In this document: positions 30,883 to 36,203 of the stretch, piece by piece
Numbering within the stretch: position 1 is the stretch's first letter
Layout: each line of letters opens with the position of its first letter
Virus record (IMG/VR): IMGVR_UViG_3300021963_000337
Span: 1-36,950 of that record
Reading direction: 5' to 3' (one strand)
DNA from: a virus
Length of the DNA: 36,950 bases
The notes under the pieces: model-generated
What the model was told of the DNA's origin: nothing
What the model saw: only the letters and a program-made list of their open reading frames with translations
Database searches by the model: none
Made by a program: the position numbers and the translations under genes

Positions 30883-32787
30883 TTATGATCTTACTAAATC
30901 TCCGTTGACAAAACTTGAACTTGACAAATATGTTGTTCCAGATGTATCTGCACCTGATGAAATTCTATCGGATATCATACTTATGGTGCTATTACTAATA
31001 TTTAGTTGTAGATATAGATCTTGTAATCCAATGACATCATTTGATTTTGGTATTGCTGATATTTCAATTATTGGTGATCCATTAATTGTTTTTGAAGTAG
31101 ATACAATTTTTATAGGAGACAGCACAATCTCTCCCTTAACATAATCAATAGTTCCAATATCCGAAAGTATAATTTTAGGAATTTCTGAGTTTACAAAAAT
31201 ACCTACTTTTCCAGTTCTCAAGTCTTGATTTGGAACATCAAAAAAGTATACAGTTTCTACAATCCCTTCAACATTAAATCCTGAAGATTTAATGTTATAT
31301 CCATTTCTATCTTTAACATGAAATTGATTTCCATAACAAATTTCATAAGTAGAAATTGAATTTAAAATGGGTCTTAAATTTCTTCTAATCTGGATATTAG
31401 TAATATTTGAAGTAACTGATGAATGACTATCATCTATAATCTTTAAAAATTTACTATATTTAAATCTAGCTCCATATCTATTCAGTTCTGTAGAATCTGC
31501 ATATTTGGAAATATTGTTAAATATCGTAGTTCTTGTCTCTTCAGAGTCTTTTGATAGGTTTGGATTATAATATACGGATGAATCAAATTCAACATACAAA
31601 TACTTAAGATCAAGAATTTCCGGAACTATTCCTGCAACAGAATATTTTCTTAACTTGTTTATAATATTTTGTTTCACTGTTGTTGAAATTATCTCACCGT
31701 TATTTGGTTTAATTGAAATAAAAACTTTACCAAATTGGGGAGGTGTTAAATCTTCACCACCAAATACAGAAACCGATTCTGTTTCTGGATAAATTTTAGG
31801 AATTAATGCCTCATAATCTGCTGATGTAACAGCTCTCATTTGAGAAGCATAAATTTTTGGTGCATACTTTTTAATTGAATCTATAGACTCAATTTCCTTT
31901 CCACTTCCAGATTCTGTATTTGTAGTAATTAGAGAAATTCCCGAATTTACAACACGATTCCTGTTGTCGAGTATTCTTCCACTATAAGTAAATGATCTAA
32001 CTCCATTTGCATTTTCGCCACTAGTTGTGACATAAGAAACTTCTACAAAGTTTAAATTATCCAGTTTTTGACCAAATATTCCATCACCAAATATTAACTC
32101 ATATCTTTGATCTTCTATTTCCTGAATGAAGAAAACTCTAGAGTTTGATGTTATTTCAAATAAAGAGTCTGCGAGGGTAAATTCTCTACGAACAGTACTA
32201 GATTGAGTATTTCTTACGGTTACTCTTATCAAAGAAGTATCAATGTTTGGATTTCCTAAAATAAACTTTTGATTTGGGTTATTTGAATCTACCGTAAAAT
32301 TTTCTAAAATAAATGTTCCCTCATAAATTTCTATATTCTGAAATAGAGCGATTCCATTTACTACAGGAACAGTAACATCTTGGGGAATTGTAAATGAATA
32401 ACTTGTTGATCCAAAAGTAGAAGAACTTGTACAAACAGTTCCACTTTTGAGTGTAAGTGTTTCTGGATTTGTCGTTAATGCTCTTGTATCGACAAAAAAA
32501 GATATATTTGCAGTAGATGCAGTTCTAGATCTTGGAACATATCCAATGTTTCTTGCAAGAGATACTACATTCTCTCTCAGAGTCGCACTATCAATAAAAA
32601 CCTCATTACTAACCATGTTAGCATTATATGAGGAAATGTATGTATTATATGCTAATACATCTATAATAGTTGAAAGAGTAGATCCCTCAAAATCATAGTC
32701 AGTAAAGTTTGAATTCGATCTAAGATAATCCTTAATCGAAGTCTTTATTTGATCGAAGTCTAAGTTAGTGAAATTTACTAATGCCAT
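30883..32787 (-). CDS. 6: Baseplate wedge protein gp6
   Basis: 634 aa, close to T4 gp6 (660 aa). The N-terminus MALVNFTNLDFDQIKTSIKD and SNFTDYDFEGSTLSTIIDVL, then YNTYISSYNANMVSNEVFID and SARNIGYVPRSRTA-type sequence (here ARNIGYVPRSRTASTANISF), is the standard gp6/gpJ-like region. Later blocks include YELIFGDGIFGQKLDNLNFV and the cross-phage motif AVTSADYEALIPKIYPE, then GEDLTPPQFGKVFISIKP. gp6 forms the continuous inner ring of the baseplate that drives sheath contraction. The ATG overlaps the gp25 stop as TAATG. Its order behind gp25 is the same as in T4. Confidence 0.95.
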   Translation of the reverse strand: MALVNFTNLDFDQIKTSIKDYLRSNSNFTDYDFEGSTLSTIIDVLAYNTYISSYNANMVSNEVFIDSATLRENVVSLARNIGYVPRSRTASTANISFFVDTRALTTNPETLTLKSGTVCTSSSTFGSTSYSFTIPQDVTVPVVNGIALFQNIEIYEGTFILENFTVDSNNPNQKFILGNPNIDTSLIRVTVRNTQSSTVRREFTLADSLFEITSNSRVFFIQEIEDQRYELIFGDGIFGQKLDNLNFVEVSYVTTSGENANGVRSFTYSGRILDNRNRVVNSGISLITTNTESGSGKEIESIDSIKKYAPKIYASQMRAVTSADYEALIPKIYPETESVSVFGGEDLTPPQFGKVFISIKPNNGEIISTTVKQNIINKLRKYSVAGIVPEILDLKYLYVEFDSSVYYNPNLSKDSEETRTTIFNNISKYADSTELNRYGARFKYSKFLKIIDDSHSSVTSNITNIQIRRNLRPILNSISTYEICYGNQFHVKDRNGYNIKSSGFNVEGIVETVYFFDVPNQDLRTGKVGIFVNSEIPKIILSDIGTIDYVKGEIVLSPIKIVSTSKTINGSPIIEISAIPKSNDVIGLQDLYLQLNISNSTISMISDRISSGADTSGTTYLSSSSFVNGDLVRS

Positions 32788-33188
32788 TATCGTGTTGGCT
32801 GTAGTGCGAATGATAATTGTTGCGGAAGAACATCAATTCCGACGATATAATAATTGATAGTCACATTAAATTCGTTATTGTCATAGTCTGGAGAGACATC
32901 TACTGATATTAAATCTACTCTTGGCTCATAATTACGAATTGTATTTTCAATTTCATCCTTAATTACAGAAGCAGAAATCTCATCCATGTTCTCAAAGAGA
33001 ACTTTAGATACTCTTGAACCTAAATTTTGATTAAAAAACCTTTCTCCAGGAAGAGTAAAGATGAGATTTCTTACTGAACGTGCTATAGCAGTCTCGTTTG
33101 TAATCGAGATCAGGTCATTATTCAGGGGATTAACCTGAAATGACATGCTAAGATCTTTAAAACCTTTACTTAGCCGTTCTACAGGCAT
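32787..33188 (-). CDS. 25: Baseplate wedge protein gp25
   Basis: 133 aa, the same length as T4 gp25 (132 aa). It has the gp25/lysozyme-like (GPW_gp25) fold signature: DLSMSFQVNPLNNDLISITN, ETAIARSVRNLIFTLPGERF, then FFNQNLGSRVSKVLFENMD and the C-terminal strand VDLISVDVSPDYDNNEFNVT. The EPR-like motif EPRVDL is present. gp25 binds gp6 in the inner baseplate and nucleates the sheath. It leads the baseplate operon, with its own late-promoter core 21 nt before the ATG. Confidence 0.95.
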   Translation of the reverse strand: MPVERLSKGFKDLSMSFQVNPLNNDLISITNETAIARSVRNLIFTLPGERFFNQNLGSRVSKVLFENMDEISASVIKDEIENTIRNYEPRVDLISVDVSPDYDNNEFNVTINYYIVGIDVLPQQLSFALQPTR

Positions 33189-35191: not shown

Positions 35192-35221
35192 ATTTTAACA
35201 GTCTATATATGCTCTTGTCAA
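35192..35221 (-). promoter_or_regulatory. Sigma70-type promoter for the glycosyltransferase operon
   Basis: A perfect -35 TTGACA (35221-35216), an 18-nt spacer and -10 TAAAAT (35197-35192; 5/6 match) on the minus strand. The -10 is 23 nt before the glycosyltransferase ATG. The -35 overlaps the TGA stop of the 63-aa gene (TATTGACA). It resembles a host-type (early) promoter rather than the late core. Confidence 0.6.
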
Positions 35222-35409
35222 TAGGAACTATCGAGAGAGACTTTCCGGTTCACCATAAGTTCCTCATAAGATAAATCATCAATCTCATAGTCAGTTTTCA
35301 TAATACCAACCATATTATTTAAGGTCCTCCAAGTAACCTCAAACTCATCCTCTTTGATCGAATGAAATAAACAACGATCCTTTGCGTATATGTGATAAAT
35401 CTTTTCCAT
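35218..35409 (-). CDS. Conserved small cyanophage-type protein, unknown function
   Basis: 63 aa from the ATG at 35409; a GTG one codon earlier is possible. It begins MEKIYHIYAKDRCLFHSIKE and continues DEFEVTWRTLNNMVGIMKTD, DYEIDDLSYEELMVN. It has a mixed alpha/beta look, is acidic, and has one cysteine. The pattern YHIYAKDxCLFHS followed by TWxTLNxMVG is one I associate with small T4-like cyanophage proteins of unknown role. A GGGAGG ribosome site lies within the end of the cupin gene, and the start overlaps its stop as TGATG. Confidence 0.78.
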   Translation of the reverse strand: MEKIYHIYAKDRCLFHSIKEDEFEVTWRTLNNMVGIMKTDYEIDDLSYEELMVNRKVSLDSSY

Positions 35410-35747
35410 CACTCTACCCTCCCGTAATGATCCTCTAAACGTACAATATCATCCTCCTCACATAAACCAATCTGTGTCTCAATAATCGTAATACCATTCT
35501 TACCAGCTTTGAGACGATGTAGATCTTCCTTACCAATAAAAACACTATCACCAACCTCTACAGTCCTTACAGTGTCCTCATGAGTCAATTCTCCATCACC
35601 CTCAACAACTATCCAATACTCTTCCCTATGGAAATGATATTGGAGTGATATTGATTGATTTGGTGAAATAATAATTCTCTTCACCTTATAATCAATCTCC
35701 TCTAATAAGTTTTCAAATAACCCCCATGGGCGAACCTCTGTAGTCAT
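35409..35747 (-). CDS. Cupin, mannose-6-phosphate isomerase type II-like
   Basis: 112 aa single-domain cupin. The opening EVRPWGLFENLLEEIDYKVK and RIIISPNQSISLQYHFHREE match the ManC/type II phosphomannose isomerase C-terminal cupin. YHFHREEYW supplies the metal-binding His-x-His...Glu set and GDSVFIGKEDLHRLKAG the second motif with its His. The end, ETQIGLCEEDDIVRLEDHYG, is also family-typical. It probably interconverts or binds a sugar phosphate feeding nucleotide-sugar synthesis, consistent with the glycosyltransferase gene downstream. It is the first gene after an intrinsic terminator; a TATAAT lies 33 nt before its ATG. Substrate is inferred only. Confidence 0.85.
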   Translation of the reverse strand: MTTEVRPWGLFENLLEEIDYKVKRIIISPNQSISLQYHFHREEYWIVVEGDGELTHEDTVRTVEVGDSVFIGKEDLHRLKAGKNGITIIETQIGLCEEDDIVRLEDHYGRVE

Positions 35748-35779
35748 AAAATTTTTCCGGGAATTTTTTATCTCACAGC

Positions 35780-35785
35780 ATTATA
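35780..35785 (-). promoter_or_regulatory. Possible -10 element for the cupin gene
   Basis: A perfect TATAAT on the minus strand between the terminator at 35799-35839 and the cupin ATG at 35747. No TTGACA-like -35 is found at 15-18 nt. Placement right after a terminator favours a promoter, but the element stands alone in AT-rich DNA. Confidence 0.35.
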
Positions 35786-35798
35786 TATCAACACAAAC

Positions 35799-35839
35799 AA
35801 AAAACCGACAGTGCCTCCGAAGATCGTAAAGCACTGTCG
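35799..35839 (-). terminator. Rho-independent terminator after the 35-aa gene
   Basis: Perfect 9-bp stem CGACAGTGC (35839-35831 on the minus strand) with GCACTGTCG (35814-35806), a 16-nt loop, then G and six T residues (35804-35799), all in minus-strand orientation. It closes the small transcription unit upstream of the cupin. Confidence 0.82.
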
Positions 35840-35894
35840 TGGATATCTTATTAACCATCCCGCAAAGACTACCTTCCAGAAACTCCAATAAGGA

Positions 35895-36002
35895 TTACTT
35901 CTTCTTCCTCTTGTTCGCACCATTTTTCTTTGCTTGACTTTGATAGGCTTTACACCTTTTATCTGGTCGGGATTTATTGTTCTTATGAATCCATCTGAAC
36001 AC
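35895..36002 (-). CDS. 35-aa lysine/arginine-rich protein with GTG start
   Basis: Begins MFRWIHKNNKSRPDKRCKAY and ends QSQAKKNGANKRKKK. Nearly half of the residues are Lys, Arg or His and there is one Asp, so it is very basic. The start is GTG at 36002, supported by a strong GGAGG nine bases upstream; no ATG start is available nearby. It is the only coding sequence I see between a good promoter (36164-36192) and an intrinsic terminator (35799-35839). A nucleic-acid-binding role is a guess from charge. An alternative is that the transcript acts as an RNA and the peptide is secondary. Confidence 0.6.
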   Translation of the reverse strand: MFRWIHKNNKSRPDKRCKAYQSQAKKNGANKRKKK

Positions 36003-36042
36003 GTTTTTAATCCTCCGGAAATTTTTTATGTTCGTGATATTT

Positions 36043-36063
36043 AGAGGTCGAATTGTCACCTCT
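36043..36063 (-). other. Leader hairpin upstream of the 35-aa gene
   Basis: Arms AGAGGT (36063-36058) and ACCTCT (36048-36043) with a 9-nt loop. No T-run follows, so it is not a terminator. It lies 40 nt before the GTG start and may belong to a structured leader. Confidence 0.45.
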
Positions 36064-36097
36064 GTAGGTTAGGAAGGACCCAAAATTCTTATAACCC

Positions 36098-36144
36098 CCC
36101 GTTACGCCCGCAGGGCACATAACCGCAACGGGCATATAACTGCC
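36098..36144 (-). ncRNA. GC-rich structured leader or small RNA candidate
   Basis: On the minus strand two adjacent hairpins can form. The first is GGCA/TGCC (36144-36141 with 36134-36131). The second has a 9-bp stem CCCGTTGCG (36132-36124) with CGTAACGGG (36106-36098), including one G-T pair, around a GC-rich loop in which GCCC/GGGC can compete. The stretch is far more GC-rich than its surroundings, lies 12-60 nt downstream of the predicted transcription start, and has no T-run. It could be a cis-regulatory leader; cyanophages are known to carry such leaders (for example the wcaG and PhotoRC motifs), but I cannot match this to either. Confidence 0.4.
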
Positions 36145-36163
36145 GAATACGCATACGAATAAG

Positions 36164-36192
36164 AGTCTAACATAAGGGTGCCAGAGTGTCAA
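36164..36192 (-). promoter_or_regulatory. Sigma70-type promoter with extended -10
   Basis: Perfect -35 TTGACA (36192-36187), a 17-nt spacer, and -10 TAGACT (36169-36164; 4/6) with an upstream TGT forming an extended -10, on the minus strand. The transcription start should be near 36157. It would drive the structured leader and the 35-aa gene, ending at the terminator. Confidence 0.62.
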
Positions 36193-36203
36193 CCCCAGCA
36201 CCC
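36176..36203. repeat. Inverted repeat flanking the -35 element
   Basis: Arms GGGTGC (36176-36181) and GCACCC (36198-36203), separated by 16 nt, bracket the TTGACA of the promoter. This is the layout of an operator site. No T-run follows, so it is unlikely to be a terminator for the 46-aa gene. Confidence 0.45.

Follow-up and report, generated by a model that had tools for sequence, protein, structure and literature searches.

A single-copy conserved site of T4-like cyanophages as a candidate early/late control region ahead of baseplate genes 25 and 6

T4-like cyanophages rank among the most abundant marine viruses. In T4, late promoters consist of an 8-bp TATA box, devoid of any upstream or -35 element, and the late activator gp45 is not bound to a sequence (PMC2988020). 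Cyanophages contain neither MotA nor AsiA; the timing of their early and middle genes in the absence of these proteins has been described as unclear, and the accepted view is that their middle genes are served by overlapping early and late promoters (PMC2984593). An early and late promoter pair has also been reported for psbA of S-PM2d (PMC5931967). Because T4 late promoters have no upstream element, cyanophages have no MotA or AsiA, and a model with paired early and late promoters exists, we propose for the locus described here a composite promoter served by a dedicated site-specific factor. An early sigma-70 promoter would be followed by a late promoter with an ultra-conserved protein-binding site at a fixed distance upstream. 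On the strength of sequence comparison, we lean towards this reading, taken as a whole and including the view that the locus controls an operon situated where the early and late parts of T4-like cyanophage genomes meet.

The window (the whole stretch of DNA that was analysed, a virus record of 36950 bases) is a contig of a T4-like cyanophage (Kyanoviridae). Nearly all of its genes are on the minus strand, and they include those for a tail fibre, a tail sheath stabilizer, a head-tail adaptor, and baseplate genes 25 and 6. The region studied adjoins the right end of the window and reads on the minus strand from 36203 to 35799 (Table 1); its conserved element precedes an operon that runs into the two baseplate genes. 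A preliminary description had presented this region as the one unit in the window with its own start and end. This did not hold, since the terminator lies inside an ORF (see below) and another strong sigma-70-like promoter is found at 35192-35221 (minus strand; TTGACA, 18 nt, TAAAAT with TG, 11/12 matches), ahead of a 255-aa glycosyltransferase-like gene, so that the studied unit is not the only one with its own start. The operon also comprises a phage-borne cupin (35409-35747, minus strand), which matches the C-terminal domain of mannose-6-phosphate isomerase (PF01050, E 2e-27).

Table 1. Positions of the features of the control region and of the genes behind it, in coordinates of the window
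Feature	Position	Strand	Remarks
Sigma-70-type (early) promoter, predicted	36164-36192	-	TTGACA 36192-36187, 17 nt, TAGACT 36169-36164, TG before -10; predicted start ~36157
12-bp inverted repeat around -35	36176-36203	.	GGGTGC..GCACCC; putative operator-like or terminator-like
G+C-rich block (-30 to -22)	36095-36103	-	composition conserved, sequence and structure not; part of the previously described double hairpin 36098-36144
Box A, A-tract position TATAAAAA	36085-36091	-	degenerate in the window: TATAAGAA
Ultra-conserved core	36053-36077	-	family consensus CTACCCTAACCTACARAGGT, window CTTCCTAACCTACAGAGGTGACAA; ACCT-N4-AGGT dyad; proposed protein-binding site
Nearly invariant G (+24)	36049	-	
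Box B TCTAAATA, late-promoter-like -10 box	36038-36045	-	predicted start ~36031-36029
GGAGG ribosome-binding site	36012-36016	-	
35-aa basic peptide MFRWIHKNNKSRPDKRCKAYQSQAKKNGANKRKKK	35895-36002	-	GTG start at 36002; conserved family
51-aa small protein (YWSFWKVVFAGWLIRYP..)	35768-35923	-	hydrophobic C-terminal stretch; starts inside the 35-aa ORF, out of frame
Terminator-like hairpin and T run	35799-35839	-	stem ~35839-35805, T run 35804-35799; inside the 51-aa coding sequence
Baseplate gene 25	32787-33188	-	
Baseplate gene 6	30883-32787	-	

The truly conserved stretch of the region, at about 36091-36036, had been overlooked previously. It is a gapless element of about 52 bp, made up of an A-tract, the core, an invariant G and an ATATA/TAAATA box. 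If CCTAACC is numbered with its first C as 0 (window position 36073; offset p corresponds to 36073 - p), the grammar of the element, which has no gaps, reads: G+C block at -30 to -22, AAAA at -15 to -12, ACTACCCTAACCTACARAGGT at -5 to +15, G at +24, and ATATA/TAAATA at +30 to +36. The spacing from A-tract to core to box B was gapless in 118 + 64 + 21 distinct copies, and CCTAACC followed the A-tract at a constant 10-12 nt. The contig sets were selected for an identical core of 20-24 nt, and only the flanks are informative there; the isolates were gathered by BLAST with mismatches allowed and show the core independently, the final alignment anchor again requiring CCTAA-CTA-A. Between the two promoters, the stretch at 36091-36150 and its equivalent in relatives are A-poor (12%) and G- and T-rich on the gene strand; this stretch drifts fast and keeps its composition.

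This site of about 50 letters is unannotated, is common to most sequenced T4-like cyanophages and occurs once per genome. When phage records were searched with the region, only a short, mostly intergenic stretch was returned beyond chance-level matches, with 100% identity over 37 nt in Synechococcus phage Bellamy. The exact 28-nt pattern was found in 31 IMG/VR stretches, the 20-nt core in at least 120 and a sister variant in at least 120 more; more than 230 IMG/VR contigs carry the element. With short-query BLAST, 294-300 phage records were found to contain the core, cyanophages accounting for nearly all of them (two Bacillus phage records were chance-level matches), and, with one or two exceptions, it occurred at one place per record. 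Gene 6 is present in about 458 cyanophage records. S-PM2, S-CAM9 and ACG-2014f, which were examined as possible lackers, had diverged candidate copies with the same internal spacing, each of which is weaker evidence when taken alone because it was found with loose patterns; in MA10, no element was detected in the 7 kb around gene 25. The core was unique within genomes (35 bits vs 9-17 for the next-best site in six genomes), nearly all of the 22 records scanned had one true core site, and two-mismatch matches to the core were overall at control level. An inverse near-match at about 145 kb was discarded, being inside coding sequence.

The isolates examined carry the element between genes or nearly so, with a few annotated small ORFs overlapping it. 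It always stands in one orientation before the first gene of a co-directional run, about 0.9-5 kb upstream of gene 25. The identity of this first gene varies (the 35-aa basic peptide, the YHIYA family, the T4-GC 389 protein, the YWNFWKVV protein and others), and the genes on both sides differ between phages, the core remaining almost unchanged. Conservation that is independent of the adjoining gene argues for a control site. A search for the core sequence in the open-access literature gave no match; a 5' end at this site may already have been mapped in the transcriptomes of Syn9 and P-SSM2.

The upstream end of the region agreed with the preliminary description, in which a TTGACA/extended -10 promoter with an inverted repeat around its -35 had been pointed out. 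The predicted promoter scores 10/12 matches and lies about 90 bp upstream of the element. Loci of relatives were collected with fixed core words, and among the matches listed 59/137 distinct relatives had a sigma-70-like promoter (at most two mismatches), compared with 2/137 shuffles, their -10 boxes being mostly 80-100 nt upstream of the core. A TTGACA-N17-TATAAT-like promoter of the early type is thus kept in relatives as a class. The description of the unit as 'early' was right as regards this conserved promoter, but not as regards the late-promoter word that directly precedes the peptide.

This word, box B, is a T4-type late-promoter word of the TATAAATA type on the gene strand, 36 nt before the 35-aa gene, and the diverged copy of S-PM2 has GATAAATA at the same spacing. 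Late words were strand-biased in six cyanophage genomes (62/2 for TATAAATA, 74/0 for GATAAATA and 133/9 for CTAAATA), a bias that could in part be codon usage since one strand carries nearly all the genes of these genomes, and that was less extreme when compared with reversed words. They were also enriched outside long ORFs in these genomes. In the window, late words numbered 12 vs 1 on the gene strand, most of them 18-36 nt before a gene start; those found on the minus strand 18-31 nt before gene starts (33217, 18946, 11876, 8541, 6293 and 3147) offer a usable late-promoter map of the contig. Box A, which was also considered as a late promoter, showed no strand bias genome-wide and no enrichment between genes, unlike the late words, and was rejected in this role. 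Among the matches listed, only 41/137 relatives had TAAATA in box B, the others having GATATA-like or other A+T-rich boxes (the GATATA-type ones with the spacing of box B), so that the late assignment is firm for the window and presumptive for the family. Furthermore, because the core and the A-tract are conserved upstream at fixed spacing, we class the box B promoter as a variant rather than as a standard member of the T4 late type.

Behind box B, the GGAGG and the 35-aa ORF with its GTG start are present as previously described, and the peptide belongs to a conserved family with a pN/pS of 0.10-0.13 (34 loci, among the matches listed), compared with 0.25-0.30 for the 51-aa family (70 loci, among the matches listed), values that the overlap of the codons may slightly distort. 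To judge from this ratio, the 35-aa peptide is real and strongly constrained. At 35895-35923 (minus strand), its lysine-rich tail and the arginine-rich start of the 51-aa protein share A/G-rich DNA, and this out-of-frame overlap recurs in relatives. The hairpin and T run that had been taken for an intrinsic terminator do exist, but they encode CFTIFGGTVGFL of the 51-aa protein, and the hairpin is found only where a relative has identical or nearly identical residues, being absent from most 51-aa relatives. Because it lies inside a conserved ORF, the unit does not end at 35799, and the hairpin was rejected as its end. In its subclade it may still act as a weak terminator.

The suggestion that the region might be a riboswitch or another regulatory RNA found no confirmation. 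Rfam gave no match at the gathering threshold or up to E 5, including for wcaG and PhotoRC, the models with which a comparison had been proposed. The leader hairpins previously drawn can form, but not beyond chance and without covariation. The GC-rich ones (36144-36098) fold no better than shuffles (z of -0.35 in the window; mean of -0.37 in the 137 relatives listed), while folding of the predicted transcript gave a z of -1.8. The hairpin AGAGGT..ACCTCT (36062-36042) forms in the window and in 36/137 relatives, among the matches listed; its 3' arm drifts freely and its arms paired as in column shuffles (452/822 cells vs 445). A helix scan of 158 distinct sequences disclosed no helix above a parallel-strand control that keeps relatedness. 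The covariance analysis in relatives therefore counts against an RNA, and we rejected a conserved RNA structure, arm pairing, covariation scan and folding z-scores all being negative. The ACCT-N4-AGGT dyad of the core was fully kept in 15/19 isolates and, by inspection, uncompensated in the broken copies, which suggests that it may be the dyad of a protein in DNA.

In the mechanism that we propose, the TTGACA promoter would serve host RNA polymerase at the early stage, and polymerase carrying the phage sigma factor gp55 would later start at box B, about 28 nt before the 35-aa gene. A putative protein, most likely phage-encoded, would bind the core, at a fixed distance upstream and beside the A-tract, and would activate or gate the box B promoter alone. 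With box B as the -10 element, the core would extend from about -47 to -28 and the A-tract would lie near -60, which is where a class II activator site and an A-tract upstream of it would lie. We infer the timing of the promoters, the binding of a protein and the sign of its effect (activation or repression) from this arrangement. No binding protein for the core was identified, and the obvious local candidate, a MazE/AbrB-like small protein (T4-GC 390), failed in this role, being acidic and absent from the variant-1 genomes scanned. T4-GC 390 is an acidic 55-aa protein of the MazE/AbrB type, encoded by the second gene behind the element in one cyanophage branch (L161:3325-3492, L171:4348-4521 and L174:2610-2774); it has relatives elsewhere in the genome in DSL-LC02 and S-CAM4. 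More tentatively, this once-per-genome control site could couple two programmes, either as the first late promoter known in T4-like phages to be activated site-specifically, through a putative family-wide regulator, or as the origin or clamp-loading site at which both replication and late transcription begin, a suggestion that we regard as possible but doubtful.

The element could by itself be a replication origin or clamp-entry site, which we consider unlikely. The sigma-70 transcript would then cross the G/T-rich block into the A+T-rich stretch and prime leading-strand synthesis as at T4 oriF/oriG, with the core as initiator or nicking site, possibly as the point at which the gp45 clamp, which is also an activator of late transcription, enters the DNA. 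This would fit with one site per genome, with an invariance of the core beyond that of ordinary promoters, with the A-poor, G/T-rich block upstream, and with the composition of the locus, in which A+T-rich DNA, a would-be unwinding element, comes after the predicted promoter, an arrangement known from T4 minimal origins (PMC3016281); a single origin has been predicted for Syn9, in a report that does not give its position (PMC2984593). However, T4 R-loop origins share no sequence motif (PMC3016281), so that an invariant core would not be expected in such an origin, and the element is always found at a gene start in one orientation. No GC-skew switch was observed at the element in six phages, either cumulatively or at fourfold sites, although this is a weak test as the genes are nearly all on one strand. 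Synteny with T4 oriF was rejected, uvsY and uvsW being elsewhere and the upstream helicase resembling RAD25 by a weak sequence match only. Quite improbable, in our view, is a leader RNA, for which box A would be the promoter and the transcript, beginning near AACUACCCUAACCUACARAGGU, would bind through its 5' end a protein or small RNA controlling translation or stability. The constant interval between the A-tract and CCTAACC speaks for it, as does, by inspection, the resemblance of AGAGGTGA in one variant to a ribosome-binding sequence. Yet the sister variant does not retain this RBS-like part, TATAAAAA does not share the distribution of the late words, no structure is conserved, and the fixed distance on to box B would be unexplained.

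We give very little credence to the model of the preliminary description, in which a transcript of about 350 nt would stand alone, complete with promoter, structured leader, peptide and terminator. Promoter, ORF, and hairpin with T run are indeed there, but the terminator is in a conserved ORF and missing from most relatives, the hairpins show no covariation, and downstream genes continue on the same strand; a self-contained transcript is not supported. It appears just as improbable that the element is an integration, recombination or module-exchange site kept identical by frequent exchange. Flanking genes that differ between phages around a constant element would be in keeping with this idea, but exchange by itself would not account for the fixed spacing of boxes that are separated by variable sequence. 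Moreover, no exact 20-bp core was found in the species genomes searched, two MAG contigs excepted, which argues against a host attachment site; a host-derived sequence was rejected on the same ground. In these two contigs (L157 and L158, with the labels Gammaproteobacteria and Woesearchaeota) the match to the cyanophage core is exact, and they are probably misbinned phage DNA.

The present analysis recasts the locus as the head of an operon leading to the baseplate genes rather than as a riboswitch or free-standing small RNA, and provides in the element a ready bait for the missing regulator, or for an origin. Like a T4-type late promoter (gp55/gp33/gp45), it has in box B, both in the window and in S-PM2, a late word at the usual short distance to the gene start; unlike such a promoter, it adds an invariant core of about 20 bp and an A-tract, at fixed spacing and once per genome. 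To our knowledge, the core does not resemble the MotA box. T4 middle (MotA-dependent) promoters similarly have a phage-specific site upstream of a -10 box, whereas the cyanophage core is present in a single copy, at about 20 nt from box B, in phages that have no MotA or AsiA (PMC2984593). Like T4 oriF and oriG (R-loop origins), the locus has a predicted promoter and, after it, DNA of A+T-rich composition in about 100 bp, but it has neither a MotA promoter nor uvsY synteny, and its sequence is strictly conserved. Rfam wcaG, PhotoRC and other cyanophage RNAs are also intergenic, cyanophage-borne and upstream of genes, in contrast with which the element has no Rfam match up to E 5 and no conserved structure. 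The middle genes of RB49 and cyanophages and psbA of S-PM2d have, like this locus, a sigma-70 promoter and a gp55-type box before one gene, but the published accounts say nothing of an ultra-conserved core lying between these promoters (PMC2984593, PMC5931967).
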